Assembly: GCA_037143175.1 (NCBI GenBank)
Contig: JBAWZF010000015.1
Span: 1-62,401 of the forward strand
From: a bacterium
GTDB lineage: Bacteria > Verrucomicrobiota > Kiritimatiellia > CAIKKV01 > CAITUY01
Direction of reading: 5' to 3'
Length of the DNA: 62,401 nucleotides
Below are positions 23,994-61,167 of the stretch, piece by piece. Positions within the stretch are counted from its first letter, which is position 1; every line of letters begins with the position of its first letter. Position numbers and translations under genes: made by a program. The notes under the pieces were generated by a model that saw nothing but the letters and a program-made list of their open reading frames with translations, was not told where the DNA came from and ran no database searches.

Positions 23994-24270
23994 CTGTGGG
24001 CAGAATCGCAACCGAATCCAGTGACCGCCAACCTATTGCCCCAATTGGAAGGAAAGGAAACACGGTTCGGAGTCATGAACAGCGTGCTGTTTGCCACGGC
24101 CACCACCGGCACCTCCTGCGGTGCGGTGAACGCCATGCATGACAGTTTCATGCCGCTGGCGGGCCTGATACCGCTTAGGGTCAGCCATTGCGGCCAGCGT
24201 GTCGGCAGGACTGGCGGGCCCCGCCAATTCGGGCCCGCATGGTCTGAGTGAAATCCTCTACGCCTATTAA
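23994..24270 (+). pseudogene. kdpA: kdpA remnant (potassium-transporting ATPase subunit A)
   Basis: Two fragments in different frames. The first, about 23994-24175, translates to [13 protein letters not shown] followed by [19 protein letters not shown], unmistakably the KdpA region with a selectivity-filter-like loop. The second, 24202-24267, reads [21 protein letters not shown] and then meets a TAA. Between them most of several hundred bases of kdpA are missing, and the N-terminal half and C-terminal end are also absent. It cannot make a functional potassium channel subunit. No start codon or ribosome site of the original gene remains. Confidence 0.85.
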
Positions 24271-25373: not shown

Positions 25374-25925
25374 CGCCCCATCCCGGGGGACTGGGCCGTA
25401 TCGTGGACAATCTGCTCAGCATGACCCGTATTGAGTCCGGACGCTTCACCATCGCACCAGTCTGGTGCGACGTAGATGAAATGATCTCTTCCGCCCAGCA
25501 ACAGGTGAGCGACCTGATCTCCCGGCATCGGATGCGCATTCTGATCCCCAATGACCTTCCGTCCGTCAAAGTCGAAAGCGGATTTATGGAGCAAGCACTG
25601 GCCAACCTTACCGCCAATGCCGCCCTTTACACTGAACCAGGCTCGGAAATTACGATTTCAGCACAGGTGGACGAGGCTCATCTTGTCCTCAAGGTATCAG
25701 ACCAAGGGCCCGGACTCCCGCAGGGCGGAGAAAACCGCATTTTCGAGAAGTTTTACCGGGGCACCAAAGCGCCATCGGGGGGGGATCGGACTGGGTTTGT
25801 CCATTGTCCGAGGCCTGATGACCGCACTGAACGGCACCGTATCCGCCGTGAATAATCCCGATCGGGGAGCCACCTTCACATTGCGTATTCCCGTTGAAAT
25901 GAAGAATATTCCGGAAAGTATATGA
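25374..25925 (+). pseudogene. kdpD: kdpD remnant (sensor kinase C-terminal part)
   Basis: Joined in frame to the kdpB fragment at about 25374. It encodes [16 protein letters not shown], a partial N-box region ([12 protein letters not shown]), [10 protein letters not shown] and FEKFYRGTK. At an eight-G run (25777-25784) the frame is lost. Dropping one G restores [12 protein letters not shown] and the normal C-terminus to the TGA at 25923. The universal-stress, transmembrane and His-phosphotransfer parts are missing. The stop still overlaps the kdpE ATG (ATGA), the usual kdpD-kdpE coupling. Confidence 0.85.
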
Positions 25926-26614
25926 CAGACTCCACTTCTCAACCCGTGGCCTTGGTGATTGACGACGAAGTTCAAATCCGCCGTTTCCTTAAACTTGCAC
26001 TTGAAGCGGAAGGGTATCGGGTATTTGAAGCCGAAACGGGACAAGCAGGGTTATCGGCCGCCGTGTATCGCCGTCCTGATGTCATCATTCTCGACCTCGG
26101 CTTACCTGATCTGGACGGGACTGAAGTTTTGAAACGCCTCCGTGAATGGAGCTCAACCCCCGTTTTAGTGCTTTCTGTCAGCCAGGATATTGATCAGAAA
26201 GTTGAGGCGCTTGATCACGGAGCTGATGACTATCTCACCAAGCCGTTTCATGCCTCTGAGCTAGCTGCCCGCTTACGCGCCATCCGACGGCACTCTCCGT
26301 CAGAACCCGCTGAATCGGCCTACCAAACCGGTTCCTTGCGATTGGATTTCGGTGCACGTCGGGTCACAACAAATGGTGCAGAGATCCATCTCACATCTAC
26401 GGAATACGCTTTGCTCCGGATATTGGCGCAGAATCACGGCAAGGTGGTCACGCACCGGCAGTTACTACGAGAAGTCTGGGGACCGCAGGCGGAAGAGCAA
26501 TCCCAATACCTGCGCGTATATATGAATCATCTTCGCAAGAAAATCAAGACTTCATCCGACTCTACCAAGCTCATCAAAACCGAACCAGGTATTGGGTATC
26601 GGCTGTCTATTTAG
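25922..26614 (+). CDS. kdpE: KdpE-like OmpR-family response regulator
   Basis: A complete 230-residue regulator. The receiver domain has LVIDDEVQIRRFLKLALEAE, the phospho-acceptor Asp in IILDLGLPDLDG, and the conserved Lys in YLTKPF. The C-terminal winged helix (about 130-228) includes LTSTEYALLRILAQNHGKVV and RVYMNHLRKKI. It is identified as KdpE by similarity and by its overlap with the kdpD end. With kdpD broken and kdpAB destroyed, its partner and target are gone here, so it may be drifting, or it may respond to another kinase. Confidence 0.88.
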   Translation: MTDSTSQPVALVIDDEVQIRRFLKLALEAEGYRVFEAETGQAGLSAAVYRRPDVIILDLGLPDLDGTEVLKRLREWSSTPVLVLSVSQDIDQKVEALDHGADDYLTKPFHASELAARLRAIRRHSPSEPAESAYQTGSLRLDFGARRVTTNGAEIHLTSTEYALLRILAQNHGKVVTHRQLLREVWGPQAEEQSQYLRVYMNHLRKKIKTSSDSTKLIKTEPGIGYRLSI

Positions 26615-45930: not shown

Positions 45931-47186
45931 TTTGTTCGTTTCTCCCATTCAAACCATACATTATCCGAACCGCTGAATAAGCGTATGGTCCGGTCATCCT
46001 CCTCAAAAACAGCTGGAATCCCGCGAATCGTCACATCACGGTGAACTGCCCCCACCGGAGCCAAAGCGAATGTACTGGACTGGAGCAGGGATAGAAGGTG
46101 GTAAACCTTGTCAGCCCAGCCGCACACGGGCACCACATCGCGCCAGTCAGGAGGGATAGCCCGAATCCCCCCATTAAAGCCCTGAGCGGTATTAAACGCA
46201 CCCGACTCAGTTTGCTGACCAAGGATCAATGTCAGATGAGGCTGTAGCCAGTCGTCGGTCAGTCGCCCGCTCCGGGCCAGGGAGGTCAACACCCCGGCGG
46301 CGGCACCGACAAACACAGGAAACTCAGATGCGGGTCGCTCTTGATGCACGAGGCTCGGAAACCCTCCTTCTTTTCGGGCGACTTTCCGTAAAAATGACTC
46401 CAAGGCATCACCGGCCTGAGCAAACCGCTCATCGTTCAACCGCCGACGTAACAAGGAAAATGCGACCTGACAACGAGCAGCCAAATACGGGCTGACAGGA
46501 CTCCCGCTCCGGTTGGAAACCGGAACTCCGCCCGCCAAGGATCCGGTCTTAATCTGTACTGCAAGCAGGGAATCTGCCGCCCCTTTAATCATCGGCTCCA
46601 ACGCTGACGTTTGCCCTGTAGCCTCCTCATAACCAATCAATACCTCCACAATGGCAGATACGGCGGAAGGCGAATAGAACTCATATTCGCTCTGGAGCCA
46701 GTTATTAAAGGTTCTTAAGGCTTTATTCCAGAGTTCACGAGTCAGCCGCTCCTCTACGAAACGCTCCACAAGCGTATCAAGTCCAGAATCAACGGGCCTT
46801 CCGGCTAAACAAAGGCAAGCACGAGCTCGCAATGCTGCGGCCATCAGGATCGGTTCATGCGGCATACTGCCTTCTGATGGATTGGACTCAAAATATGAAC
46901 ACCGCAACGTGCCGTTGGCCAGCTGGCTTCGCCATATCTCGGCGAGTGCTCCCTCGATCCGCTCCAGCCGGACGAAATCAGAACCAGTCTGGCTTTGGAG
47001 CAACCAGCCATCAAGCAACCCTTCGTATCTCCAATCGAAACCAGGGCCGCAATATCCCATGCTGATACCACGGAATCCCACGACGGGGCCGTAATATCCA
47101 TCAGGGCCATGCATACCATTAAACCAGGATTCCAACCTTTGCCTGGCACCTGTTATTTTAGCGTTATCAATCCCTTGTAAGTTCAT
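45906..47186 (-). CDS. predicted alpha/alpha-toroid protein of the polysaccharide locus
   Basis: A 426-residue cytoplasmic protein with no signal peptide. Repeated helical pairs with G-x-F/Y motifs (GTLRCSYFESNPSEG, GSLAGGVPVSNRSG, GGFPSLVHQER, GAFNTAQGFNGG) suggest an alpha/alpha toroid, the fold of terpene cyclases, prenyltransferases and several polysaccharide lyases or hydrolases. No catalytic signature is certain. It sits between a GT4 gene and a nitroreductase-methyltransferase gene, overlapping both, so it is probably part of the biosynthesis pathway. Function unknown. Confidence 0.6.
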   Translation of the reverse strand: MNLQGIDNAKITGARQRLESWFNGMHGPDGYYGPVVGFRGISMGYCGPGFDWRYEGLLDGWLLQSQTGSDFVRLERIEGALAEIWRSQLANGTLRCSYFESNPSEGSMPHEPILMAAALRARACLCLAGRPVDSGLDTLVERFVEERLTRELWNKALRTFNNWLQSEYEFYSPSAVSAIVEVLIGYEEATGQTSALEPMIKGAADSLLAVQIKTGSLAGGVPVSNRSGSPVSPYLAARCQVAFSLLRRRLNDERFAQAGDALESFLRKVARKEGGFPSLVHQERPASEFPVFVGAAAGVLTSLARSGRLTDDWLQPHLTLILGQQTESGAFNTAQGFNGGIRAIPPDWRDVVPVCGWADKVYHLLSLLQSSTFALAPVGAVHRDVTIRGIPAVFEEDDRTIRLFSGSDNVWFEWEKRTKWPRICNL

Positions 47187-48591
47187 AAGCTATAGAACTG
47201 CTTAGAAAGCGTGTGAAAGAACGGCTGACGAACCGTTGCGACCGCCAATCCGCCACCCGATTCGCCAAAGCATGTAAACCGAACCGGCGGGAAAATTTCT
47301 CAACTACAGACGCGACAGCCAGCTCCATGGGTTGTATTCCGGCGCTTCCGGTAATCCGGAAGCCAGCCTCACGGAACGCAGCCTCTATCTGGCTGGGTTC
47401 ATATTTTCGCTCAGGTCCGCGATTCCAGTTCCGCCCGAGGGCAAAGTTTTTCTTTCGCATCCGCCGATACCGGTAAAAATGCGGGTAGAATCGATTGGAA
47501 ACAGTTACAAGCACAGAGCCACCCGGTGCCAAAACGCGGCGCATTTCACGCAGTAACGGGAGCGGATCTTCAAAATGCTCAAGGCGTTCATAACATGACA
47601 TCACCTGAACATGGCCGTCCGGCAGAGGAATATGAATACGCTTCTTTTCAGAATTAGTTACACATTCAAGAGCACCGGGCGGCTGCAAACGACTGAACCG
47701 CTCGCGAATGAACCGCTCCACACCCGGCGTTAAATCGAAGGCATAATACATCTTCGCATCATCACCACAGGCATTCATCATCTGGAACAGCATATCTCCG
47801 TTGAAGGAAAGCACGTCCAACACACATGGACGCTGATAACGGGAGATCATCATACCCAGACGGCAGGTCATATACTGAATCTTGGGGGAAAACCGGGGAT
47901 CACAGTCGACATGAAGCGTCATGGCGTCGATGTGAAGTCCTTTGTACCAGAGCAACTTATCACGGAAATCGGCCGTCTGTTCCAGGCTCCATAGATGGGG
48001 CCTGATATCCGCATGAAATCGCTTGGGGCGGGCCGTATAGGTGTTGAAATCAAGAACGTCCTCAACCGGTCTGCGGCCTGGTGGCGGGGGCGAATCATCC
48101 GGATATCCGATACAAACAACTCCGAAATTCTTCAGGTAAGCAGGAGCCCCAACAGCCTTGCGAATCCCATCGGGCACACGGATCCCACCAAGATAGATCG
48201 CACCCAAATCATGGGCTTCTGCGGCGAACAATAGAGCGGCAATCGCCATTCCCATGGAAATCTGCGCTGTACTGCAGGGATTGCGCAACTCCAGGGATGT
48301 GTCATAAAAAACGGCAATAAGGACGGGGGCATCATGGAAGTAGGATTGCTGGGCATCACTCATCCGACAGGCTTTCATTCTCACCTCGGGATCTGTGATG
48401 GCGACAAACTGCCACAACTGCCGATTGCAGGCAGTAGGAGTCATGGTGGCCGCCAGAATGAGTCGCTCAATCAGGTGACGGGGAACAGGCGCATCTTTAA
48501 AAACACGAGTGCTGCTTCGGCGTTCGAGCATCGCCAAAAAAGCATCACCGGATGAACCTGTAATTCCGTTTGCAGAGGCAGTCTGATTCAT
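47167..48591 (-). CDS. nitroreductase-methyltransferase fusion
   Basis: A 474-residue two-domain protein. Residues about 18-185 are a nitroreductase-family FMN domain: RRSSTRVFKDAPV, TPTACNRQLWQFVAI and a C-terminal VVCIGYPDD segment. Residues about 225-474 are a class I SAM methyltransferase with VLDVLSFNGDML, HVQVMSCYERLEHFEDPLPL and RRVLAPGGSVLVTVSN. The glycine-rich SAM loop is altered (LSFNGD rather than a GxGxG string), so activity needs checking. It overlaps the O-antigen ligase gene by 4 bp. The substrate is unknown. Confidence 0.8.
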   Translation of the reverse strand: MNQTASANGITGSSGDAFLAMLERRSSTRVFKDAPVPRHLIERLILAATMTPTACNRQLWQFVAITDPEVRMKACRMSDAQQSYFHDAPVLIAVFYDTSLELRNPCSTAQISMGMAIAALLFAAEAHDLGAIYLGGIRVPDGIRKAVGAPAYLKNFGVVCIGYPDDSPPPPGRRPVEDVLDFNTYTARPKRFHADIRPHLWSLEQTADFRDKLLWYKGLHIDAMTLHVDCDPRFSPKIQYMTCRLGMMISRYQRPCVLDVLSFNGDMLFQMMNACGDDAKMYYAFDLTPGVERFIRERFSRLQPPGALECVTNSEKKRIHIPLPDGHVQVMSCYERLEHFEDPLPLLREMRRVLAPGGSVLVTVSNRFYPHFYRYRRMRKKNFALGRNWNRGPERKYEPSQIEAAFREAGFRITGSAGIQPMELAVASVVEKFSRRFGLHALANRVADWRSQRFVSRSFTRFLSSSIAYELTRD

Positions 48592-50009
48592 GGGGGTTGA
48601 GTGTAATCAACTGGTGTGGACGACGCAATCGGAATAGACGTAATCGACGGCACATTTTCAGCCTCGTGTCCGGCATACCAAACAGCCACCACCATACCGA
48701 CGAAGATCATCATCATGAAATACATAGGTGTCTGCCGGTAACCAAGTTGGAGGCAACTTTGAAGATGATCGACCAATAAGGCCGTCGTGGAGGCCACCGC
48801 CAAAGCATGAAACAAACTCTTCCCTTTGCGCACATAAAAGGGAAGCGCCAAGCCCGCAAATCGAAGCCAGAAGAAGGCCAGGGCGATAACCCCCGGTATC
48901 CCTAACTCCCCCAACGTCAGATACCAATTGTTGTGGGCCGGCGTTCCGGGGGGTAAATCAGGATCAACATCCCCTGCATATTTCAACCAAGACCATGCCG
49001 AGAAATTACCAAGACCAACCCCCCAGGCATGGTCTTTGGCCATCAAGCGACCTTCCTGATTGTAAAGTCCCCGGTACGCCAGATCAGCGGACGCGTCCTG
49101 CTCACCGCCGAATCGATTCATGAGGGTATTCAGTGCCATTGCCAGGACAACCACAGCCACTACCAAGCCGATAAAAAGCAGTACGATATTTTTTACGTTA
49201 AAGTGGCGCGGCAACAAAACCATGGCATTCAACCAGATTCCCAGAACCAAACCAGCGAGGCCACCACGAGAAATGGTCAGAATAACAGAAATAGCGGCGC
49301 ACAAGGTTAAGAAACCGAACACCAGGCTACCCAACCACTGGCGACGCTGGAGCGCAAATGCAAAAACGAACGTCCCCAGCATGGCCATATAGGTCGCTAA
49401 ACTGTTGGGGTGCCCCAACGTCGCACGAACCCGGTTGATGCCATACAGATAGCGTGAACTGACAGCCAACCAGGTCATGTAAAGTGCCGTCAACCCTATG
49501 CCGAACAAGATCGTCTGAGCCGTCTTTTCATCCCTGACGTAGTTCACGATGACGAGATAGAGAAGAAATCCTCGGAATATTTTACTCAGCTCAAAAAGAG
49601 GATACAGGCCCACCTCAAATTGCTCATAGGGAATGAGTTTTGCCTCTTCAGGAACAGTAATCAATGAACCCGCAAGTAACCAGGATACTATCCCGACAGC
49701 CAGATAGATCAGGGTTGGAATCGTCAGAGGGGGGAACCAGCGAAACGGAACTTCTTTGCGCTTGAGCAGCATTGTGATCATCAGGATCCACACACAGATA
49801 TCCACTAAACTTATCTCGAACCCCCGGGTGTTGGCCCGGTAGAATTCCCTGGAAACAAAATTTATTCCCACTAAATCCGGCTCACAGGTTGCCCACACCA
49901 GAACCACAGCGACAACGTGCATCATCGACTGCCAGGTCTTGCATATCAGCACGCCGATGGGAATACCGAACACTACCACCAGCAAAAATATGATGTACTT
50001 CGCTTCCAT
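48588..50009 (-). CDS. O-antigen ligase/polymerase (Wzy/WaaL type)
   Basis: A 473-residue membrane protein with about 12 helices. The large periplasmic loop near LMAKDHAWGVGLGNFSAWSW and PAHNNWYLTLGELGIPGV matches the Wzy_C region, with the typical G-x-G-N-F and H-N-x-Y/W-L. It either polymerises flipped repeat units or ligates the chain to an acceptor. It is the first gene of the 15-gene minus-strand operon. The 113 bp to the divergent STAS-glycosyltransferase gene must hold the operon promoter. A weak TTGATT box on the minus strand is all I can see. Confidence 0.87.
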   Translation of the reverse strand: MEAKYIIFLLVVVFGIPIGVLICKTWQSMMHVVAVVLVWATCEPDLVGINFVSREFYRANTRGFEISLVDICVWILMITMLLKRKEVPFRWFPPLTIPTLIYLAVGIVSWLLAGSLITVPEEAKLIPYEQFEVGLYPLFELSKIFRGFLLYLVIVNYVRDEKTAQTILFGIGLTALYMTWLAVSSRYLYGINRVRATLGHPNSLATYMAMLGTFVFAFALQRRQWLGSLVFGFLTLCAAISVILTISRGGLAGLVLGIWLNAMVLLPRHFNVKNIVLLFIGLVVAVVVLAMALNTLMNRFGGEQDASADLAYRGLYNQEGRLMAKDHAWGVGLGNFSAWSWLKYAGDVDPDLPPGTPAHNNWYLTLGELGIPGVIALAFFWLRFAGLALPFYVRKGKSLFHALAVASTTALLVDHLQSCLQLGYRQTPMYFMMMIFVGMVVAVWYAGHEAENVPSITSIPIASSTPVDYTQPP

Positions 50010-50122: not shown

Positions 50123-51571
50123 ATGAATACAGACAACCCCTACGATCCTTCGGTTCAAGTTATCCTGGGTATCCCCTTCAATAATGTATCCTTTGCTGAA
50201 GCGGTAGAATGGGTACATCGTCGCGTCATCTCACGTACCCCTGGCTACATTGCCACAGCCAATTTGGATTTTGTAAAGCTGGCCTGGGAAGATCCTGAAT
50301 TGCAACGCATCCTACTTGAGGCGGATCTGGTTGTGGCTGATGGTTTCCCCATTGTCTGGCTGTCGAGCTTGCTGGGGCCTGCCCTGAAGGAACGAGTAAC
50401 AGGTAGTGACCTGGTCCCCATGATGGCCGCAATGGCCGCTGAAAAAGGACACAGTCTATATCTCCTCGGCGGCGCGCCCGGTGTAGGGGAAAAAGCAGAG
50501 AACTCGCTCCGGAAACGTTTTCCCGAAATCCGGATTGCCGGGTGTTATTCCCCGCCCTTGGCTGACGTCATTTCCATGAATCATTCAGGTATTCTCGAGC
50601 GGCTTGAAACCGCAAATCCGGACATACTTCTAGTAGCTTTCGGGGCACCAAAGCAGGAAAAGTTCGCCAACATTCATGTCCGGAACTGGTCCGTTCCTGT
50701 TTCTATCGGCGTGGGAGGGACATTGGATTTTCTGGCTGGAACGCAAACCCGTGCCCCGCGTTTTGTCCAAAAGATATCACTGGAATGGCTGTGGCGATGG
50801 CTAACGGCGCCGCGGCGGCTGACTAAACGCTATGTTGATGATTTTGTGTTTTTACTGACGTCCTGCTGGCGTCTGTTGACCTTACGGGTCCGTTCAGATC
50901 ATGCTTCAGAAGTCGATCCCCACGATACTATGGGCGAAGTGGATTCTCCTGAAATCTTTTGGACACGCTACCCCTTTCAGTCAAAAGAGAGCTTGGAACA
51001 TCTGTTCATTACGGCGCAAACTCAATCCATTGCCCTCGACATTAGGGGAATCTCGTGGTTTTCCAGCACTGAACTAGGGGGGCTACTACAACTGGCGAAA
51101 ACCTGTCGTCGCCATGACCGCCGATTGATCCTATACCATGCTGGAACCCGGGTGAAGCGACTGCTCTTAACCTGCCGCCTTATGGAGTATCTAGAGTTGG
51201 CCGAATCCAAAGCTGAGGTTCAGTCTTACTTAACCAGTATTTTGCCAGGCATACAGAAAGGCCGCACCTACAGGGGGGATGGAAATCAACTGGTCATTCA
51301 AACACCCCGGGAACTCACCGCCGCCAATATGTCTGAATTCAAATCCGAAATTGAACCTGAATGCAACCATTCCCCCGCCTACTCGGCTTGGGTCGCGGAT
51401 CTCCAGCACACCAAATTCGTCGACAGTTCGGCTTTGGGATTGTTTGCGGCTTGGCGGAAAAGAGCGACTCAAAACAGTATTCCGTTGAAGTTTATCAACG
51501 CTCAAAAAAACGTAGCTCAGACGTTTCGCATTGCAAAAGTGGAATCCTGGCTCGACTCGCCCCCACCCTGA
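50123..51571 (+). CDS. WecG/TagA/CpsF-family glycosyltransferase with two STAS domains
   Basis: A 482-residue fusion. Residues 10-255 are the GT26 domain, with TANLDFVKLAWEDPEL, VVADGFPIVWL, LLGGAPGVGEKA and VAFGAPKQEKF. That family transfers N-acetylmannosaminuronic acid or similar sugars to lipid-linked acceptors. Residues about 270-372 form a STAS domain with SWFSSTELGGL (Ser314/Ser315). Residues about 378-482 form a second STAS domain with KFVDSSALGL (Ser435/Ser436), the SpoIIAA-type phosphoserine site. STAS domains are the antagonists in partner switching. Their fusion to a glycosyltransferase is unusual and points to direct regulation by the adjacent phosphatase/kinase. Confidence 0.85.
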   Translation: MNTDNPYDPSVQVILGIPFNNVSFAEAVEWVHRRVISRTPGYIATANLDFVKLAWEDPELQRILLEADLVVADGFPIVWLSSLLGPALKERVTGSDLVPMMAAMAAEKGHSLYLLGGAPGVGEKAENSLRKRFPEIRIAGCYSPPLADVISMNHSGILERLETANPDILLVAFGAPKQEKFANIHVRNWSVPVSIGVGGTLDFLAGTQTRAPRFVQKISLEWLWRWLTAPRRLTKRYVDDFVFLLTSCWRLLTLRVRSDHASEVDPHDTMGEVDSPEIFWTRYPFQSKESLEHLFITAQTQSIALDIRGISWFSSTELGGLLQLAKTCRRHDRRLILYHAGTRVKRLLLTCRLMEYLELAESKAEVQSYLTSILPGIQKGRTYRGDGNQLVIQTPRELTAANMSEFKSEIEPECNHSPAYSAWVADLQHTKFVDSSALGLFAAWRKRATQNSIPLKFINAQKNVAQTFRIAKVESWLDSPPP

Positions 51572-51603: not shown

Positions 51604-53049
51604 TTAACCCCTGTTATCTGTCCGCGTGCTGAGGAATCTCAGAGGTCGATTGAGCAACAAGGACAAAATCATTTTGACATCCCCAAAAAAAGAACGGAAC
51701 CGGGCGTAATACAAGGCATGGGCCAAGTGTCCTCCTGGTTCCGCATAATCTTGCGAATCGGTTTCATAGACAAGCACGGCGGGGAAATACTCTTTAAGTT
51801 GGAACTTTAACGAGGTTTCTTCGGGAGAAGCCATCGGTCGTACGCCACACAACCAGAGTTGCCCCATCACAACCCTGCAAAGCCGTGGAAATAGATCAAG
51901 GTTCAACGCCTGAAACAGCGTGCTTATGCCTGAACCGGATTCGGGAATTGGAACAAATTCGGAAAGCGGACCGACTCGCGCCCCTGTTAAATGAAAAGAA
52001 GCTTTCCGGAATCGTCCCTTCCGGAGCAAGTTGATCAAGGGGTATAATACAATAAACGGCCCAGCCTGAAGTAACACTAACACCATCGCACATAGCCAAC
52101 CAAACACAGCACGAAGCGCATCGCCCCATCGCACCATGGGTCGAACAGCGGCAACCAACCAGGGATCATTGATTTCAGCGATTGTTCCGCTATCAGGATC
52201 AATAAGTCGACCGCCAGCCACAATTTTACCACGGATTTCAAGCCCTCGTCCCACGTACGTTCCGTCCAGAATCACACATCGCGATAAATCGGATTGACGA
52301 TCGATAATGACATGGTTGCCGATCACCGCCAGTGGCCCCACCGATGCCATGACGCCGATGCGGGAGTTATTGCCGATCGCCACCGGCGGCGTAACGGAGA
52401 CGGACGGAGGAATGACAACATTATACCCGATGCTCACATCATCTATTAATGAGTAACCCGCCCGGACATATCGCGGAGCCTCCTCGCCCACGATACTCAT
52501 ATTCAAGGCATAGTAGTCTCGTATCGAAAGGATCAAAGCAGGCTTCAGGTTCAGTTCATTAAATGAACGGCCCTTAAGTTCTGCACGGGGACTCGCAATA
52601 TGAGCCCGCAGGAAATCTGGAGAATCGCTCAACAGACAATTCACAGAACCATCCACCGAGCGATCCAGAAATACGCCCCCGGAAAAACTTGCCGCAGCAC
52701 CCGTGGCGGCCAGACGATGAAGGAATACCGGGTTGCGCAAATATAACAATCCATCCACCCACTGCTCAGGATTTCGCATCAAAAAGGAATCAGGATCCTG
52801 CTCTTCCTTCAAAAAACTGTAGGTGATCGATAATCCCCACTGTTCCCCATCCCCGGCATAGCCCTCTATAAATTCCGCCCCCTCGCCCAGGATAATCCGG
52901 ACATCCTTGATCCCAAGATCAATGCATACTTCGAACCAATATTCCAGAAAATGACGATTCCCGACTGGCAGTAATGGCCAGGGAATATCACCCAGAATTT
53001 CCGCCCAAGGCTGGATCAGACCCGTATGGAGAACTGCTTTCACTGGCAT
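51604..53049 (-). CDS. nucleotidyltransferase-like / beta-helix / degenerate sugar transferase fusion
   Basis: A 481-residue multi-part protein. The first 100 residues resemble a sugar-nucleotide pyrophosphorylase (PWPLLPVGNRHFLEYWFEVC) but lack the N-terminal GGxGTR motif. Residues about 210-290 show left-handed beta-helix hexapeptides (VVIPPSVSVTPPVAIGNNSR, IGVMASVGPLAVIG). A membrane segment lies near 320-345. The C-terminal 130 residues recall the initiating sugar transferases: LNLDLFPRLCRVVMGQLWL followed by CGVRPM in place of VGPRP. Catalytic residues of both ends seem eroded, suggesting a regulatory or scaffold protein. It is the last gene of the operon and overlaps the STAS gene by 10 bp. 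Confidence 0.65.
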   Translation of the reverse strand: MPVKAVLHTGLIQPWAEILGDIPWPLLPVGNRHFLEYWFEVCIDLGIKDVRIILGEGAEFIEGYAGDGEQWGLSITYSFLKEEQDPDSFLMRNPEQWVDGLLYLRNPVFLHRLAATGAAASFSGGVFLDRSVDGSVNCLLSDSPDFLRAHIASPRAELKGRSFNELNLKPALILSIRDYYALNMSIVGEEAPRYVRAGYSLIDDVSIGYNVVIPPSVSVTPPVAIGNNSRIGVMASVGPLAVIGNHVIIDRQSDLSRCVILDGTYVGRGLEIRGKIVAGGRLIDPDSGTIAEINDPWLVAAVRPMVRWGDALRAVFGWLCAMVLVLLQAGPFIVLYPLINLLRKGRFRKASFHLTGARVGPLSEFVPIPESGSGISTLFQALNLDLFPRLCRVVMGQLWLCGVRPMASPEETSLKFQLKEYFPAVLVYETDSQDYAEPGGHLAHALYYARFRSFFGDVKMILSLLLNRPLRFLSTRTDNRG

Positions 53050-53381
53050 GCCCGGACTGCTTCGTCCACCGTATCAACAATTTCAAAAACTTTGTAAGCC
53101 CGTGTAATTTCGAAGACCATTCTTACTTTTTTTGACAAGCAGGCAATTTTTAGATCGCCGCCCCTCTCCGACACACGCTTTAACATTGCAATCAATGTGC
53201 CTAAGCCTGAACTGTCCATGAAATCCACCGACTCAAGGCTAATCACCACATTTTTTACACCACTCAACCCGGCAAACCAGTCAATGAATTGTTCCCGGAA
53301 TGAATCAACCGATTCAGCTGTTAAAGCTTCCATCGGCGTAACCACCCCAATGGTTCCTCTCTCTTCAAACTTTATTTTCAT
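53040..53381 (-). CDS. STAS domain anti-sigma factor antagonist
   Basis: A 113-residue single STAS domain protein of the SpoIIAA/RsbV/HsbA type. The phosphorylation loop is VDFMDSSGLGTL, with Asp56 and Ser57/Ser58. The unphosphorylated form of such proteins binds a partner and the phosphorylated form releases it. It lies 15 bp after the initiating sugar transferase gene and is the natural substrate of the PP2C and HATPase domains encoded two genes upstream. Confidence 0.93.
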   Translation of the reverse strand: MKIKFEERGTIGVVTPMEALTAESVDSFREQFIDWFAGLSGVKNVVISLESVDFMDSSGLGTLIAMLKRVSERGGDLKIACLSKKVRMVFEITRAYKVFEIVDTVDEAVRACQ

Positions 53382-53396
53382 AAATAGTCCCCAATA

Positions 53397-54131
53397 TCAA
53401 AAAGCCCCACGGCCCAGCAACACTGCCGGCACAGTTTGCACCATGATTACAAGATCCTTAATCATGCTTTGACTGTGAATATACTGCAAATCAAGCCGTA
53501 CCTGTTCCTTGAACGGAATCTCCGAACGCCCCTGAATCTGCCATAAGCAGGTCAACCCCGGCTTAATATGTAACCGTTTGCGATCCTCGAGAGTATATTG
53601 AGCCACTTCCCTGGGTACTGGGGGGCGCGGTCCGACAATGGAGAGATCCCCAAGCAAAACATTAAGAAACTGGGGCATCTCATCGATGCTATACCGTCGG
53701 ATAAAGCGACCGACCTTCGTAATCCGGGGATCATTTTTCATCTTAAAAATAACCCCGTCCTGGGATTCATTTTGCTTTATCAACATATCCTTGAGTTGCT
53801 CGGCATTACGAAACATGGATCTGAACTTGTAAAAACGGAACACCCGGCCATTTAAACCCACCCGATTTTGGGCGAAAAAAACAGGATAGCCGTCTTCAAG
53901 ACAAATGGCCACACCCACCACGATAAATAAGGGGATCAGCATCAAAATCGCCATCGCCGAGAGAGAAATATCTATAATCCGTTTAACCGAGTAGACGCTT
54001 CTCAAGCCGAATTCCCAAAAGCCTATTTTAAGAATAAGACGTGCACGCAACATTCTTATGCTGGAGCGGGAGGTCGGCAGATTCAGATCTTTAAAGAGAG
54101 CGGCCCGAGCGGTGTAAATACTTTCATTCAT
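53397..54131 (-). CDS. initiating sugar transferase (WcaJ/WbaP type)
   Basis: A 244-residue polyprenyl-phosphate sugar-1-phosphate transferase that starts repeat units on undecaprenyl phosphate. One N-terminal re-entrant or membrane helix is at about 55-80. The catalytic region has VFFAQNRVGLNGRVFRFYKF, RFIRRYSIDEMPQFLNVLLG, LSIVGPRPPVPREV and PGLTCLWQIQGRSE, all normal. It is the short monotopic form without the four-helix N-terminal region of WcaJ or WbaP. The ATG at 54131 lies 25 bp after the upstream stop, while an in-frame start at 54335 would overlap that gene by 179 bp. Its location inside the signalling operon suggests control of priming. Confidence 0.92.
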   Translation of the reverse strand: MNESIYTARAALFKDLNLPTSRSSIRMLRARLILKIGFWEFGLRSVYSVKRIIDISLSAMAILMLIPLFIVVGVAICLEDGYPVFFAQNRVGLNGRVFRFYKFRSMFRNAEQLKDMLIKQNESQDGVIFKMKNDPRITKVGRFIRRYSIDEMPQFLNVLLGDLSIVGPRPPVPREVAQYTLEDRKRLHIKPGLTCLWQIQGRSEIPFKEQVRLDLQYIHSQSMIKDLVIMVQTVPAVLLGRGAF

Positions 54132-54156: not shown

Positions 54157-55833
54157 TTACTCGGGATGGATATCCTTTGCAACTTCAAAAACCCCGAAAT
54201 TTTCATGATACCGGCGAAACAGGTCTTTCCGACGGGCAATGGCCATGATGATCTCACGTCCTCGCCCCCGTTCACTCCGTGAGCTGGCCACATCGGTTCG
54301 GGCAAGCCAGCCATCCATATCCCACTCCCGCCCACTGTCTAAAAAGAACACCCGACAGAATGAATCGTATAGACGTAATTGAAAAATGATTGCCCCCCCT
54401 TCAGGAACTCGCCCATGCTCAACAACGTTAACCCCGTACTCCATGACCAGTAACCTCACTGCCCCCGCGGCTAAATCTGTCCACCCGGCTTCCAAAAGCC
54501 GCTGTTCACTGATCTCAGCAAGTTGCGCAATGGCCCTTTTGGTAGGCAGGACGGATGATTCAAATAGCACCTGAGCAGGATCCAAACAGTTTATAAAAAT
54601 GGCAGTACAATCGTCCTTATCCAAATGATAGCCGTCCTGGATAAGCCGTTCCATCAACCCTTCAGGCGGATTCACGCAGCCAGCTTTAATGGCCCGAATA
54701 AGCCCTGACTTCACACCAACGACCCCGCAGGCATCATCACGCTGTCCCCGGTAAGCTTCAGAAAGGCCGTCCGTATAGATCAATAAAGAAGTCCCTGGAG
54801 TTGCAGACACAGTCATTTCGCCAAGAGATGCCGCGTCAGCCCCGACACAATCGTCGAGTTCAAACCCAATGGGGAAAGTTCCATCTCCAGACAGAGGACG
54901 CGCTTCCGCGAAGGCCTGACCATGCCAAACCAAAGGCTCAGGATGCCCGCAATTCATGCACTTCCATACCCGGGTGTCAGGATCATATAATGCCAGGAAT
55001 AGCGAGGCATAGATTTCCTGATTCGTTACATTCCTCCTGAATCGTTCCTCAATCTTGCGATGCACCATCGCCAGCCCCTGATCACCATATCCAAGAAGCA
55101 CCTCAGTAATAATCACCTTCAACAGTGATGCAACCATGGCTGCGCCCACCCCATGTCCCGATACATCACCGACATAGACACACACACGCCCGCTCGGCAA
55201 CTTGATGGCGTCAAATACATCACCTCCGATAGCCATACTGGGGTGGTAGGCCATCCGGATCTCGCAATCCAGCGTGATTAACGGGGTAGTTGAAAGAAGC
55301 TTCTGTTGCAAGGATCCAGCCACTCTCAACTCACGCGACATCTTTTCTTTCCACCGTTTCAAGGCATCATGGCTGCGCTTCAAATCCAGAGCGTTGCGAA
55401 CTCTAGCGATCAACTCGCGCGGATTAAACGGCTTCCGTATATAATCAAAAGCGCCAGCATCAAAACCTTTTTCAATGTCCGCAATATTGGCCAGGGCTGT
55501 CACCATGATCACAGGAATGTCCTGGGTTCGGGGATCCTCCTTTAAGGAATGAGAAACATCGTACCCCGAGATCCCGGGCATCATAACGTCCACCAGTATT
55601 AATTCGGGAACGCTGTCACGGGCCAAGGACAAGCCCTGTTCACCGCTTTCAGCCAGTGTCACCTTGCACCCTCGCCCGACCAATAATTTCCGCAAATACT
55701 CTCGGTTGGGAAGTTCATCATCAATCACCAGAACATGCCCCTCCAATCCTATACCCTCGATCGCGCACGCCCCACTGAGCTGAGGGATAGGCATCGCCCC
55801 CACGGGTTTCGAGTCTTTTAGGTTCGTATTCAT
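54157..55833 (-). CDS. REC-PP2C-HATPase regulator (HsbR/RsbU-like)
   Basis: A 558-residue protein. The receiver (about 32-150) has VLVIDDELPNREYLRKLL, phospho-acceptor Asp in LILVDVMMPGISG and Lys in YIRKPF. The SpoIIE-type phosphatase (about 190-400) keeps its metal-binding Asp residues in MAIGGDVFDAI, YVGDVSGHGVGAAM and LLIYTDGLSEAY. The RsbW-type kinase domain (about 420-555) has LLVMEYGVNVVEHG, DSGREWDMDG and ERGRGREIIM, so the ATP site looks intact. It can in principle both phosphorylate and dephosphorylate a STAS partner, switched by REC phosphorylation, as in Pseudomonas HsbR. The ATG at 55833 overlaps the Hpt stop (ATGA). Confidence 0.92.
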   Translation of the reverse strand: MNTNLKDSKPVGAMPIPQLSGACAIEGIGLEGHVLVIDDELPNREYLRKLLVGRGCKVTLAESGEQGLSLARDSVPELILVDVMMPGISGYDVSHSLKEDPRTQDIPVIMVTALANIADIEKGFDAGAFDYIRKPFNPRELIARVRNALDLKRSHDALKRWKEKMSRELRVAGSLQQKLLSTTPLITLDCEIRMAYHPSMAIGGDVFDAIKLPSGRVCVYVGDVSGHGVGAAMVASLLKVIITEVLLGYGDQGLAMVHRKIEERFRRNVTNQEIYASLFLALYDPDTRVWKCMNCGHPEPLVWHGQAFAEARPLSGDGTFPIGFELDDCVGADAASLGEMTVSATPGTSLLIYTDGLSEAYRGQRDDACGVVGVKSGLIRAIKAGCVNPPEGLMERLIQDGYHLDKDDCTAIFINCLDPAQVLFESSVLPTKRAIAQLAEISEQRLLEAGWTDLAAGAVRLLVMEYGVNVVEHGRVPEGGAIIFQLRLYDSFCRVFFLDSGREWDMDGWLARTDVASSRSERGRGREIIMAIARRKDLFRRYHENFGVFEVAKDIHPE

Positions 55834-56219
55834 GATTCCGAAATCCCCTCCTCGCTCCATGCAGCCACCCAGTTCCGGAGCCCCTCCGATAACTCGAAAC
55901 AACGGGAGTAATCGCCGCGTTTGATCCCCGCACTCAATTCCTCAGCAACTACTGACAAGGCGGGCACTCCCATCGTCCCGCCCATCCCGAGTAGCGAATG
56001 GGCCGCACGCCTGACATCCGGCTCGCTGCGCCCTGTTACCGCCGTATGAATCGATAAAACTAAATTGTTGATATGGTCTCGAAAAAGCAACACCAGTTCA
56101 TCATCCAACTCAGAGGTATCCACCAAAAAAACATGACACCGGTCAGCCAATCCAGGAATCATTCCCTCAAAAGTTTTCATAGTAAGACGGTTCAGTTCAT
56201 CCGGATTAGAGGCCATCAC
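55830..56219 (-). CDS. Hpt domain protein
   Basis: A 129-residue histidine phosphotransfer protein. The site is VRRAAHSLLGMGGTMGVPAL, with the phospho-accepting His in AHSLLG. It has no other domain. It lies between a hybrid kinase and a REC-output protein, overlapping both by a few bases, so it almost certainly carries phosphate between them, like HptB. The GTG at 56219 overlaps the kinase stop (GTGA). An ATG at 56216 is equally possible. Confidence 0.9.
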   Translation of the reverse strand: MMASNPDELNRLTMKTFEGMIPGLADRCHVFLVDTSELDDELVLLFRDHINNLVLSIHTAVTGRSEPDVRRAAHSLLGMGGTMGVPALSVVAEELSAGIKRGDYSRCFELSEGLRNWVAAWSEEGISES

Positions 56220-58714
56220 AATCCCCTACCTTTCAACGAATTAATCCCCGATTTCCAGCTCTCAAGTGCCTGTTTCAAGACCTCAACACGCACGGGCTTC
56301 GAGATATAATCATCCATCCCAGCCTCCAGACACTTCTCGCGATCCCCATCCAGGGCATTGGCCGTCATGGCAATGATCGTTACCCTGCGCCCCGAACGAC
56401 CTCGTTGTTGTTCCAGCTCACGAATTCTTCCGGTCGCTTCAAACCCGTCTATAACGGGCATCTGACAGTCCATCAATATGATGTCATAATCTTGTCGCCC
56501 CGCCGCCTCGAGGGCTTCCCGGCCATTGCACACCGCATCCGTCCGAGTGTAGCCAAGCTTATGTAACTGCTTCAATGCAACCTTTTGATTCACCAGATTA
56601 TCCTCGGCCAGAAGAATCCGAGCCGTCTGCTCAACCGGTTCCGGACTGCCTGCAACAGGCCTATCGGAGATAGCAGGCATCTGGCTCTTTCCCTCCGCAT
56701 CCAGAACAACCATGATGGAATCTAATAATAGGGATTGCTTGACCGGCTTGAGCATCACCCGGACTCCCGGCAGATCCCTGACCGCGTCGGTCTCGGGAGA
56801 CAATCCCATAGAGGTCAATACAACCACGGGAAGAGAAGCTAAGGCCGGATCACCCTTAATAGACCTGACGAGGTCTAGTCCCGTCAATTCCGGCATAGCC
56901 ATATCACTCAACAAAAAAGCATAGGGGATTCCCGCAGAAGCTTTCCCCCGAATGGCGCGTAATCCTTCCTCAACGGTCGCGAAACAGTCACAGGTCATTC
57001 CCCAGGATCGCAGGATTTTATCCAAAATGAGCCGGCTGGTAGCATTATCATCAATCACAACACAACAAAGATTTTCCAGACCGGCTGGATCAGACCGGAC
57101 ACGTGGGCTTGACGCATGGCTTCTCAATAAGGGGAGTTGGAACCAGAACAAAGAGCCCTTCCCGACCTCACTTTGCACTCCGATGTGACCGTCCATTAAT
57201 TCGATGAGCCGCCGCGAAATGGCAAGTCCCAAGCCTGTCCCACCATACTTGCGAGAAGCAGATCCATCCTCCTGCCAAAAAACCTCAAAAAGTCGCTCCT
57301 GAGCCTTAGTCGACATCCCAATGCCAGTATCCTGGACTTCAAAATGCAGCCAGAACCGGTCATCCTCCTGTCGCTCCAGCCTGACTCGCGCAACGACCTC
57401 ACCCCTCTCCGTGAACTTGACTGCGTTCGACAAGAGGTTAATCATGACTTGACGTAACCGCCCGGCATCACCACGTAACATCATGGGCACATCCATTTCG
57501 ACATGCGACACCATCTCGACATGCTTCGCCGCTGCTGCCTCAGCCAGAACATCAAGCGATCCCTCAATCAGATCCATCAGGTCAAAATCGTCCTGAATGA
57601 TTTTAAACTTGCCCGCCTCAATCTTTGAGAAATCAAGAATTTCATTGATCAGGGAGAGAAGGGCTTCGCCGCTGGTGCCGATGGTCCGGACGTAATCAGC
57701 CTGCTCCTCAGTCAAGGGAGTCTGCGCCAACAGACCGGTTAGCCCGATCACAGCATTCATTGGAGTTCGTATTTCGTGGCTGATGTTGGCCAGGAATTCG
57801 CCCTTGGCTTTATTGGCCGCTTCTGCCGCCACCGCCAACTGATTGGAGCGTTCAATGGCCTTCTGTAATTCACCGTGCGAGGCCTCAAGTCGCTGTCGCG
57901 ATGCCTCGAGGTCCTCCATCACGCTCAACATCTGAACGTGATTATGCTCCAATTCACGAGTCCGACGGCTTAAGTCCTCATTCGCCCTTTTGAGGATCAG
58001 CTCATTATTTTTCCGATCCGATATATCTACAAAACTTTCCAGCAGACAGGCCCTGCCCCGGTGTATAATCGGCCCCACTGTTTTCAAGATCGGCAACAAG
58101 GATCCATCCCTGCGCACCAATTGCCGCTCCGAGTTATCGATCTTCTGGTGAAAGTCGCTGATCGGACATTTGCCCCTTTCCGCCGGACAGACAAACTGCT
58201 GGCATCGCCTGTCTATAACCTCTTCCCGGGAGGCTCCCATCATTCGCAATGCGGCGGGGTTGGCATCGCAGATAACATGGGTTTCTTCATCAATGACCAT
58301 CACCCCGACCTGAATATTGTCCAGAAGAAATTTCAGTTGGCGCTCACTTTCCGCAGCATCAACATCCTTCTTCTTTCGCTCAGTAATATCCACTGCAGAA
58401 CCGATCAATTCAATCACTACCCCATTTCGTATTCTCGGCAGGATATCGAGAAGGAAGATGAATTTCCCATTTTCCACGGCCAGCTCGAACGAGCAGGGCT
58501 TCCCACTCCATGAAGACTCAAAGTAAGCAACCAAAGTTCGGCTCACCTCCGGGGAAAAGACATCATCAACAAACCGCCCGCCAATTCCCCCTTTACATGA
58601 TGTCATCCGGGAAACCAATTGCCCGCGGCACAAGGGCAAGACAAATCGATCTCCGGTTTTGACAACCCGGAACGTCATTCCCGGCTGAAGGTCTTGAGAC
58701 AGGTCATGATTCAT
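56216..58714 (-). CDS. hybrid histidine kinase PAS-PAS-HK-REC-REC
   Basis: An 832-residue soluble hybrid kinase. Two PAS domains (about 20-110 and 125-235) precede a coiled coil (235-300). HisKA has FLANISHEIRTPMNAVIGL, with phospho-accepting His313. HATPase follows with INLLSNAVKFTERG, VQDTGIGM and GGTGLGLAI. Two receivers lie at about 555-670 and 700-820, the second with RILLAEDNLVNQKVALKQL and the Asp in IILMDCQMPVIDG. The second PAS has an unusual cysteine set CQQFVCPAERGKC (171-183). It has no Hpt of its own, since this is the separate gene downstream. It overlaps both neighbours by 4 bp. Confidence 0.92.
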   Translation of the reverse strand: MNHDLSQDLQPGMTFRVVKTGDRFVLPLCRGQLVSRMTSCKGGIGGRFVDDVFSPEVSRTLVAYFESSWSGKPCSFELAVENGKFIFLLDILPRIRNGVVIELIGSAVDITERKKKDVDAAESERQLKFLLDNIQVGVMVIDEETHVICDANPAALRMMGASREEVIDRRCQQFVCPAERGKCPISDFHQKIDNSERQLVRRDGSLLPILKTVGPIIHRGRACLLESFVDISDRKNNELILKRANEDLSRRTRELEHNHVQMLSVMEDLEASRQRLEASHGELQKAIERSNQLAVAAEAANKAKGEFLANISHEIRTPMNAVIGLTGLLAQTPLTEEQADYVRTIGTSGEALLSLINEILDFSKIEAGKFKIIQDDFDLMDLIEGSLDVLAEAAAAKHVEMVSHVEMDVPMMLRGDAGRLRQVMINLLSNAVKFTERGEVVARVRLERQEDDRFWLHFEVQDTGIGMSTKAQERLFEVFWQEDGSASRKYGGTGLGLAISRRLIELMDGHIGVQSEVGKGSLFWFQLPLLRSHASSPRVRSDPAGLENLCCVVIDDNATSRLILDKILRSWGMTCDCFATVEEGLRAIRGKASAGIPYAFLLSDMAMPELTGLDLVRSIKGDPALASLPVVVLTSMGLSPETDAVRDLPGVRVMLKPVKQSLLLDSIMVVLDAEGKSQMPAISDRPVAGSPEPVEQTARILLAEDNLVNQKVALKQLHKLGYTRTDAVCNGREALEAAGRQDYDIILMDCQMPVIDGFEATGRIRELEQQRGRSGRRVTIIAMTANALDGDREKCLEAGMDDYISKPVRVEVLKQALESWKSGINSLKGRGL

Positions 58715-61167
58715 GCGTTCTCCTGTTTATCACTGACCGGATTTCTTCCTTCTAAGGACTCTTTCGCCAAAATCGACTGGTAGGCGGGAGGCCTGCCCAA
58801 CTCCACCTGCAACTGATTGACTTCGTGCTTTAGCTCCAAAATTCGCGTCTCACGTCCCGTCATAAGTCGGTTATGTCGCTCCAGTTCCTTGAGCGTTCCC
58901 TTGAGAATAGCTTCCCCTTGCTTATTCTGGGTAATATCCGCAATGATCACCAGGTTACCCATCAGGTTCCCCCACTGTCCATGCAACGGTGCGACATAGA
59001 GAAGTCCCTCTCGACGTTCGCCTGTACTGGTCAACAACTCCAGTTCGCAAGGAGCCACGTCTTTGCTTTCTTTGATCAATCGCATTTGCTCATTCACGCG
59101 CAACCGGCTCTCCTGAATAAAACATGGCCAATCCGAGATCGCCTGACCCACCAGAGCCTCGGCAGGGAACCCGACCATCGACAAGGCGCGGCGATTCAGT
59201 TCAACCAGCCGGTCGTTGCCATCCAACACCATGATCGCCTCAGGCGAATGCTCAAATACTCGCCGATATCGCTCCTCGCTTTCATATTTCTGAGATTCCA
59301 TGGACTTCCGTTCATCTTTCGCAATGAGCAACGCCAGCATATCCACGATTGCCAGAATGAGTTGAATCTCTTCATTCGTCCAGCTTCGGATGGTTTCGGC
59401 ATGTTCAACACACAGCATGCCTTGAATTTTCCCGCCTCTCGAAACAGGTGCATGGAGCAAAGAAATAATACGCTTGTCGTTGAGCAAATCCTCCGCCAGG
59501 CCATGAGTCCGCTCATCGACACGAATGTCAGGAATACTGAGAAACGGCTTGTCTTTCAGCGCCTGGTAATATCCGGGATATCGGCTGACGAGCAACGCCG
59601 CCCCGCACTCATGGATATTCCGTGATTTGGAATAGGATTCTTCGCAGATAAATGCCGAGCGATCCTCGATATATTTCCAGACGCTGACAGATTCCACATC
59701 CAGGGAAGACGCAAGAGTCTGCGCTACATGCTCCAATGCAGCAGGAAAAGAGGCGAAATCCTGCCGGGACAACTCCAGGACAACCGCCTGATTGAGTTCA
59801 AATTGACGTGTTCTATCCCACCAGTTTTGCCGAAACTGGAAAAAACCAATCAAAATAACCGACAACATTGCAATCTGCTGAATGATCCCAAAACGAGCCT
59901 CAGCTGTTCGACGTTCGATGTCGGCAGCCGACACATCTAGCCCGAGTGCAAGCTTGACACGCTCAGGGCCGTCTTTGTTCAATACCACGGCAATCAGGGC
60001 GGAGACCCAGGTCCCCCAACGATCCGTGTAGGGTTTTGATACATACGGGACTCCTGATTGAAAAAACGACCGATCCTCCTCGTCAATCTGATCAGCATAG
60101 ACCGTTCCAGGAACAATGTTCCAGCCCTCCTTGGAGTCAGTCGATGAGGACACATAGTTGATGCTTTTGCCCTCTTTGGGGCCATACAGATAAATATTGC
60201 GCACATCCGAACTTGACGTCCGAATTCGAGTAAATATATCTCGCAGGTGGCTGTATTCCGGTGACTTTAAATCGTCCAATGTGCCTGAAAAATGTCTCAA
60301 GGGCTCCACGTCCAAAGCAGCGGTAACAAGCATGGCTCGAACCATCAGTTCAGCTCCATATTCTTTCCGGGCTTGTTCTCCTGCCTGTTGGGTTACTACC
60401 CAGCCCCCGCAAGCCAATGACACCATGATACACGCCATCTGAAGCCCGAACCAGGACTTGCGCCTGACAAAAACACCCGACGCCGTGTTTCGCGAAGCAT
60501 ACTGGTAGGCTTGCCACAACGAGGCTGCCAATAACAACGGCACAATAATGTAAACATAGGTTATGGGAAAACCAACAATAGCGGCAAATCGCTCGCGATT
60601 GAGAACGGAGGCAGGAAAGAAATCATCTTTCGGGGCACCAAGAAGAAAAACCAAAGCCATCAGGATCATACTAGTAGTTGCCAGCCCCAATGCACTTTTT
60701 GAAACTCGGGCAAAACGGGTTGCCTGCCACATCCGCCGGGCACAATAAATTGCGATCGCTGCCAGAAAAAGGAATATCGCCAATTCGTATTCTTGCACCC
60801 CGCCTACTTCAATCACAACGACAAGGAAAACGAGGGGCAGCATGTTCAGGCTTATACGAAGCCAAGGCTTCGAAACCCAGCGAGGCAAAAGTTCCGTCAT
60901 GGAAAATAAAAGCAGGCATGTTACAGCCCCCGCGAATAAGATGGAATGCACCGCATTCAGGATCGGTAACGCCCCGAGGTTAGTCGCGGCACATTCAATC
61001 CACTGACAGCCACCAAACATGACCCCAAACCACCCCAGGCTCGCCCACGATAAGAGCGGGGTAGGGATTCGTCGGAGGCAAAAACAGACTGAAGACAGCA
61101 CGAAAAAGGCCAAACCCGTGAGGAAATGGATATAATCTGATTGCAAGTCAAAAAATGATGAAATCAT
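58711..61167 (-). CDS. multi-pass membrane sensor with GAF and PAS domains, no kinase
   Basis: An 818-residue protein. The first 230 residues contain about seven helices of unknown ligand type. A further helix (about 238-260) opens an extracytoplasmic PDC/Cache-like domain (about 262-415) that ends with a helix near 425-445. A GAF domain (about 465-610) and a PAS domain (about 630-750) are cytoplasmic. The tail is coiled coil with ILELKHEVNQLQVELGRPPA, a frequent end of PAS/GAF signalling proteins. No HisKA, HATPase, GGDEF or PP2C follows, so it must signal by contact, probably with the hybrid kinase encoded 4 bp into its stop. It is the first gene of the operon. Confidence 0.85.
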   Translation of the reverse strand: MISSFFDLQSDYIHFLTGLAFFVLSSVCFCLRRIPTPLLSWASLGWFGVMFGGCQWIECAATNLGALPILNAVHSILFAGAVTCLLLFSMTELLPRWVSKPWLRISLNMLPLVFLVVVIEVGGVQEYELAIFLFLAAIAIYCARRMWQATRFARVSKSALGLATTSMILMALVFLLGAPKDDFFPASVLNRERFAAIVGFPITYVYIIVPLLLAASLWQAYQYASRNTASGVFVRRKSWFGLQMACIMVSLACGGWVVTQQAGEQARKEYGAELMVRAMLVTAALDVEPLRHFSGTLDDLKSPEYSHLRDIFTRIRTSSSDVRNIYLYGPKEGKSINYVSSSTDSKEGWNIVPGTVYADQIDEEDRSFFQSGVPYVSKPYTDRWGTWVSALIAVVLNKDGPERVKLALGLDVSAADIERRTAEARFGIIQQIAMLSVILIGFFQFRQNWWDRTRQFELNQAVVLELSRQDFASFPAALEHVAQTLASSLDVESVSVWKYIEDRSAFICEESYSKSRNIHECGAALLVSRYPGYYQALKDKPFLSIPDIRVDERTHGLAEDLLNDKRIISLLHAPVSRGGKIQGMLCVEHAETIRSWTNEEIQLILAIVDMLALLIAKDERKSMESQKYESEERYRRVFEHSPEAIMVLDGNDRLVELNRRALSMVGFPAEALVGQAISDWPCFIQESRLRVNEQMRLIKESKDVAPCELELLTSTGERREGLLYVAPLHGQWGNLMGNLVIIADITQNKQGEAILKGTLKELERHNRLMTGRETRILELKHEVNQLQVELGRPPAYQSILAKESLEGRNPVSDKQENA

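Follow-up and report, generated by a model that had tools for sequence, protein, structure and literature searches.

A WecG/TagA-type glycosyltransferase fused to two STAS domains as the candidate output of an exopolysaccharide partner-switching system

In the window, by which I mean the whole analysed stretch of 62,401 nucleotides of contig JBAWZF010000015.1 from a member of the Kiritimatiellia, an exopolysaccharide cluster encodes a 482-amino-acid protein that is confirmed as a glycosyltransferase of family GT26 (WecG/TagA/CpsF); its catalytic residues are intact, and two STAS domains follow the enzyme part. A few genes away lies the gene for a protein with a receiver (REC), a SpoIIE phosphatase and a HATPase kinase domain, hereafter RSH (Table 1). 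The reading that I favour, with moderate confidence, is that these genes form a partner-switching system for exopolysaccharide in which the output STAS domains are fused to a chain-building glycosyltransferase, and that RSH would set the phosphorylation of S315 and S435 of the fusion, thereby gating docking or assembly of the enzyme.

Table 1. Features of the fusion gene and of its surroundings, in positions of the window
Feature	Position	Strand	Remarks
Wzy-type polymerase/ligase	48588..50009	-	divergent neighbour in the exopolysaccharide cluster
GT26-STAS-STAS fusion gene	50123..51571	+	482 aa, ATG start; from ORF, Pfam and AlphaFold2 model
GT26 catalytic domain	50150..50833	+	residues 10-237
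Appendage at the C-terminus of GT26, continued by a long helix (230-256) with hydrophobic stretch	50759..50890	+	equivalent of the TagA membrane-docking element
STAS1	50945..51238	+	residues 275-372
S315 codon	51065..51067	+	equivalent of SpoIIAA S58 in STAS1
STAS2	51254..51562	+	residues 378-480
S435 codon	51425..51427	+	equivalent of SpoIIAA S58 in STAS2
Hexapeptide-repeat protein	51604..53049	-	N-terminus nucleotidyltransferase-like, C-terminus weakly Bac_transf-like; its gene ends the conserved block
Free-standing STAS protein	53040..53381	-	113 aa; acceptor S57, codon 53211-53213
Polyprenyl-phosphate hexose-1-phosphate transferase (Bac_transf)	53397..54131	-	presumed chain-initiating enzyme; profile match; start set from 244-aa homologues, ORF open to 54335
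REC + SpoIIE phosphatase + HATPase kinase protein (RSH)	54157..55902	-	start uncertain, 55902 or 55833
Hpt phosphotransfer protein	55830..56219	-	profile match
Hybrid histidine kinase with two receivers	56216..58714	-	candidate input; profile match
GAF/PAS sensor protein	58711..61167	-	candidate input; profile match

The order of a GT26 domain and two STAS domains had been proposed in a first-pass annotation of the sequence, and it is borne out by both profile matches and the predicted fold. In the Pfam scan, Glyco_tran_WecG (PF03808) matches residues 67-237 with its complete profile (positions 1-168 of 168, 188.6 bits, E = 1e-55), while STAS (PF01740, 59.9 bits, E = 2.3e-16) and STAS_2 (E = 1.3e-15) each match two stretches, all three over their cut-offs; NCBIfam agrees, with TIGR00377 covering two stretches at 74.6 bits. 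The AlphaFold2 model of the protein, for which the input was 24 sequences, has a mean pLDDT of 89.0 and a pTM of 0.88. In structure alignments its GT26 part (residues 10-210) resembles TagA/TarA with Z scores of 28-29 and an rmsd of 1.4-1.6 over 194-198 residues, STAS1 (270-380) resembles 4xs5 (Z 10.1), and STAS2 (375-480) resembles TM1442 (Z 14.3) and RsbV (Z 13.7), so that the C-terminal half is predicted to fold as STAS, as had been supposed. The helix of the appendage runs on to residue 256 in the model, and a low-confidence linker at about residues 257-277 joins the GT26 part to STAS1. In an alignment to 7MPK (E = 6.8e-32), residues T45, D73, R225 and R232 of the fusion fall on T37, D65, R214 and R221 of TagA. 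Judging from these residues, the window copy is probably an active GT26 enzyme, which would transfer a sugar onto a substrate that is presumably an undecaprenyl-diphosphate-linked intermediate in exopolysaccharide assembly.

The first-pass annotation had also pointed to loops of the phosphoserine type, with candidate serines at 314/315 and 435/436. Such loops are indeed present in both STAS domains, and the candidates could be narrowed to one of each pair: aligned with the loop of SpoIIAA, F-M-D57-S58-S59-G-L-G, the acceptors fall on S315 and S435. In the model S315 opens the helix 315-330 and S435 the helix 435-450; S58 of SpoIIAA stands at the start of a helix as well. In the loop of STAS1, when aligned to SpoIIAA, a Ser replaces the Asp before the acceptor and a Glu replaces the Gly after it. 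The loop around S435, with its preceding Asp, is a classic phospho-loop.

Homologues of the fusion, full-length or nearly so, are present in about 52 of the 346 genomes of the class, and the full-length ones mostly share 40-52% identity. A scan of the contig collection with a single sequence gave no matches, and the alignment-based scan of the same collection gave named carriers. The named relatives among them are Kiritimatiellales, including the cultured Pontiella sulfatireligans F21, and further carriers are Pontiellaceae isolates, MAGs of Kiritimatiellales and Lentisphaerae, and other Verrucomicrobia. In other phyla the fusion is sparse and known from MAGs, with single-STAS forms in Armatimonadetes, in Bryobacterales and in one MAG labelled Gammaproteobacteria. 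Within the class, family f20 also has a one-STAS form, and its genomes carry RSH nonetheless. One 866-amino-acid open reading frame (L055:2524-5124, genome G070) combines GT2, GT26 and STAS. An assembly join, a worry raised at the outset, is excluded by the full-length homologues, which recur in independent genomes by the dozen, and the two parts are not separate genes in relatives. Two apparent splits were set aside: the one in G090 breaks near residue 209, within GT26 and away from the domain boundary, and the one in G079 is explained by contig ends.

Residue 315 is Ser in 55 of 61 fusions and residue 435 in 44 of the 49 that have this column. S315 is replaced by Ile in two RSH-bearing genomes (G150 and G155), and four fusions of other lineages have Ala, Cys or Glu there. 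T45, D73, Q178, R225 and R232 are kept in at least 56 of 61 fusions. The idea that the fused domains derive recently from the free STAS protein of the block was considered and rejected: STAS1, STAS2 and the free STAS form three separate clades, and hence there has been no recent exchange between fused and free STAS.

The block of Hpt, RSH, Bac_transf, STAS and hexapeptide genes is kept in most of the genomes examined, also where the fusion sits elsewhere. The first-pass annotation had described a HATPase domain encoded at 54157-55833; this domain is present, as one part of the larger RSH protein with its REC and SpoIIE domains. The SpoIIE domain is matched by PF07228 with 98.4 bits, and HATPase_c_2 reaches 24.8 bits in the window copy, below the cut-off of 27.4 that orthologues exceed. 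The residues expected of working domains are invariant among 34 sequences, namely E488 and N492 of the kinase N-box, D522 and G524 of its DxG motif, D105 of the REC domain, and the metal-binding D228, D246, D378 and D430 of the SpoIIE domain. In the free STAS protein S57 is invariant in 27 of 27 sequences, as is the acceptor Asp-Ser across these 27. In view of these invariant residues, the machinery looks active. Among the ten window proteins around the fusion, the profile scan gave no match to a sigma factor.

Some further observations concern the surroundings. Homologues of the composite hexapeptide-type protein (for example L150:6635-8032) usually adjoin a free STAS gene. Within the exopolysaccharide cluster, positions 47167-48591 encode a nitroreductase-like domain fused to a methyltransferase, with homologues in the same gene order elsewhere (L038, L042, L158 and L189). 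Farther away, two short open reading frames at 24248-25855 resemble, by eye, a KdpB-type ATPase in truncated form and the C-terminal portion of a kinase of the KdpD type, and are followed at 25922-26614 by an apparently intact response regulator, which gives the region the look of a decayed kdp operon.

RSH, counted at E <= 1e-45, is present in 56 of the 346 class genomes and the fusion in 52, with both in 50. Applied to the raw table, Fisher's exact test yields 6e-51, a value that ignores the relatedness of the genomes. Because the genomes are related, I used a within-family permutation, in which 49 shared genomes compare with 33.2 +/- 2.0 expected and a maximum of 43 in 200,000 draws; the co-occurrence numbers are approximate, as the limits of the families were deduced from the order of the genome handles and the list of fusions was compiled by eye. 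In seven families (f1, f3, f8, f12, f26, f28 and f45) one or a few genomes have both genes and the remainder neither. In six genomes RSH was detected and the fusion was not. Two of them, G069 and G097, are incomplete MAGs; in three (G311, G312 and G345) no Bac_transf and hexapeptide genes adjoin RSH; and in the sixth, G109, the RSH, Bac_transf, STAS and hexapeptide genes are all present. The loci L163 and L176 (of G311 and G312) and L161 (of G310) encode an Hpt-REC-SpoIIE-HATPase arrangement accompanied by STAS and hybrid kinase genes and with no adjoining Bac_transf or hexapeptide gene, apparently the same module in a different context.

Outside the class, the gene order of G494 equals that of the window. 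In G508 and G440 the fusion lies a few kilobases from a free STAS gene, a gene for a HATPase-GAF-SpoIIE protein and a separate REC gene, and in an Akkermansiaceae MAG a HATPase-SpoIIE protein and a REC gene are encoded near the fusion. The last three genomes indicate that the association of the fusion with a kinase/phosphatase recurs with differing domain orders. On the genomic evidence, the near one-to-one pairing of fusion and RSH suggests a direct on/off control of polymer assembly. The earlier proposal, in which partner switching targets a polymer-assembly enzyme directly, gains support from the co-occurrence, the conserved acceptor serines and the invariant kinase/phosphatase residues; the phosphorylation and the change in activity that it implies are predictions.

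Part of the co-occurrence may stem from exopolysaccharide genes being gained and lost as a single set. Taken further, the association could be genomic only, both genes being cargo of such a set and the role of the STAS domains being unrelated and structural. This would fit the window, G001, G125 and G494, where all the genes are adjacent. However, in two families the genes co-occur while fusion and RSH are unlinked where examined (f19, 22 genomes shared out of 23 with the fusion and 23 with RSH; f20, 8 shared out of 8 and 9), and on single contigs the two can lie far apart, at 3.69 and 0.50 Mb in G083 and at 0.93 and 0.39 Mb in G101. As the acceptor serines are also conserved, I regard a purely genomic association as very improbable. 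Alternatively, the fused STAS pair could be a docking adaptor that recruits the second-step transferase to a complex with the free STAS, the initiating transferase or the hexapeptide protein; RSH would then act chiefly on the free STAS, and the serines of the fusion would be kept for binding. The free STAS gene does lie between the genes for the initiating transferase and the hexapeptide protein in most blocks, and MAGs of Armatimonadetes and Bryobacterales place the GT26-STAS gene itself between the Bac_transf and hexapeptide genes. The Glu after the acceptor of STAS1 and the Ile in G150 and G155 point in the same direction, and there is a precedent in MlaB, a STAS protein that acts through binding to an enzyme subunit (PMC7367683). 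A mere adaptor would nevertheless not be expected to pair about one-to-one with a kinase/phosphatase even where the genes are unlinked, nor to keep a phospho-loop of the classic kind around S435, and I consider this explanation unlikely.

Several lineages carry a degenerate GT26 part. In G015 and G016 (L061:688-2265 and L062:9101-10597), which have the gene order of the window and RSH, the GT26 motifs TAN, TGSD and PKQ and the appendage are lost and both STAS serines are kept; between these two genomes dN/dS is about 0.31 for the GT-like part, 0.17 for STAS1 and 0.04 for STAS2. Two other copies (L098:10001-11377 and L116:1668-3035) have Glu-Glu in place of Asp-Gly and a deleted appendage, again with the serines kept, and in G306 (L065:8822-10402) the appendage is gone and catalytic parts are missing from GT26, with both acceptor serines still in place. 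The retention of the STAS pair on a degenerate GT26 indicates that catalysis is not the sole selected function and argues for a partner of the STAS pair's own; the switch may act beyond catalysis alone. It could even be that the STAS pair is the real output, in a signalling protein on a GT26 scaffold with, for instance, a regulator or a synthase as its partner, and that glycosyltransferase activity is incidental and lost in places. The losses in G015, G016, L098 and L116 and the dN/dS values of the first two would agree with this, but the five catalytic and appendage residues are kept in nearly all fusions and the window copy is intact, which makes it improbable as a general account.

In the favoured reading, a partner switch acting on the glycosyltransferase, a signal would pass from the hybrid histidine kinase to Hpt and on to the REC domain of RSH, which would set the balance between the HATPase serine kinase and the SpoIIE phosphatase. 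RSH would thereby control how far S315 and S435 of the fusion, and S57 of the free STAS protein, are phosphorylated. Speaking against this reading are the replacements of S315, the one-STAS form of f20, the degenerate GT26 copies, the RSH genes without a detected fusion and the sub-threshold HATPase_c_2 match of the window copy. TagA is reported to be an inactive soluble dimer that becomes an active, membrane-bound monomer after its appendage folds onto the active site, in which T37 and D65 are located; R221 is part of the C-terminal appendage, which is required for activity (PMC6493773). The fusion shares with TagA/TarA (PDB 5WB4 and 7MPK) the catalytic fold, the Thr and Asp residues and the Arg-bearing C-terminal appendage, yet TagA ends at this appendage, whereas the fusion protein continues with two STAS domains after a longer helix. 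These domains are attached directly to the element that in TagA completes the active site on the membrane, and for this reason their phosphorylation or the binding of a partner could gate membrane docking, or else assembly with the initiating transferase. A phospho-dependent STAS partner could favour or hinder docking; by analogy with SypA, the unphosphorylated form would be the one that permits synthesis. A more specific version is that the serine kinase/phosphatase directly phosphorylates the GT-fused STAS domains and so switches assembly at the enzyme, with neither a sigma factor nor c-di-GMP involved, while elsewhere, on a dead enzyme, the STAS pair serves as a signalling adaptor. This version is tentative, and I would rate it as quite possible and somewhat short of probable.

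The first-pass annotation knew of no example of this architecture. A search of the open-access literature for STAS combined with WecG or CpsF and glycosyltransferase found no description, though an earlier one is possible; the architecture is common in Verrucomicrobiota, and a review mentions a glycosyltransferase with an N-terminal STAS domain, namely all4160 of Anabaena, which is needed for envelope polysaccharide (PMC8256260). The likeness lies in the fusion of STAS to a glycosyltransferase for envelope polysaccharide; all4160 differs in its single, N-terminal STAS domain, and the passage of that review on all4160 describes no link to a kinase/phosphatase. If the proposed switch is real, it would be the first on an undecaprenyl-linked sugar transferase, as far as could be found in the open-access literature. 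Cultured carriers of the fusion exist, among them Pontiella sulfatireligans F21, a species reported to form sulfated, glycosaminoglycan-like exopolymers in stationary phase (PMC7356697).

Among known systems, HsbA-HsbD, BgrV-BgrR and SiaC-SiaD are alike in that a STAS or STAS-like protein under phospho-control acts directly on an enzyme (PMC8457831); there, however, this enzyme is a diguanylate cyclase and serves signalling, and the STAS component is a separate protein. In MlaB-MlaF a STAS protein also binds an enzyme, with the acceptor position at the interface (PMC7367683), but the enzyme is an ABC transporter ATPase, the two are separate proteins, and phosphorylation is not demonstrated for this pair. 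Closest is the SypA/SypE system, which likewise has a STAS protein and a kinase-REC-phosphatase protein in a polysaccharide locus (PMC4517449, PMC10120452 and PMC8256260), corresponding here to the free STAS gene with its acceptor Ser and to RSH. The domain order of SypE is kinase-REC-phosphatase (PMC10120452) and that of RSH is REC-SpoIIE-HATPase, so that RSH would work like SypE without being classed as one. SypA of Vibrio fischeri acts in its unphosphorylated form and below transcription, on a target that is unknown (PMC10120452, PMC4517449). How STAS proteins of this type control polysaccharide below transcription is an open question, and it becomes directly testable where a STAS domain is part of a defined chain-assembly enzyme. 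The joining of a STAS output to such an enzyme, together with its near one-to-one pairing with a kinase/phosphatase, suggests that glycosyltransferases are targets; in contrast to SypA, the STAS domains are here covalently part of the glycosyltransferase itself.
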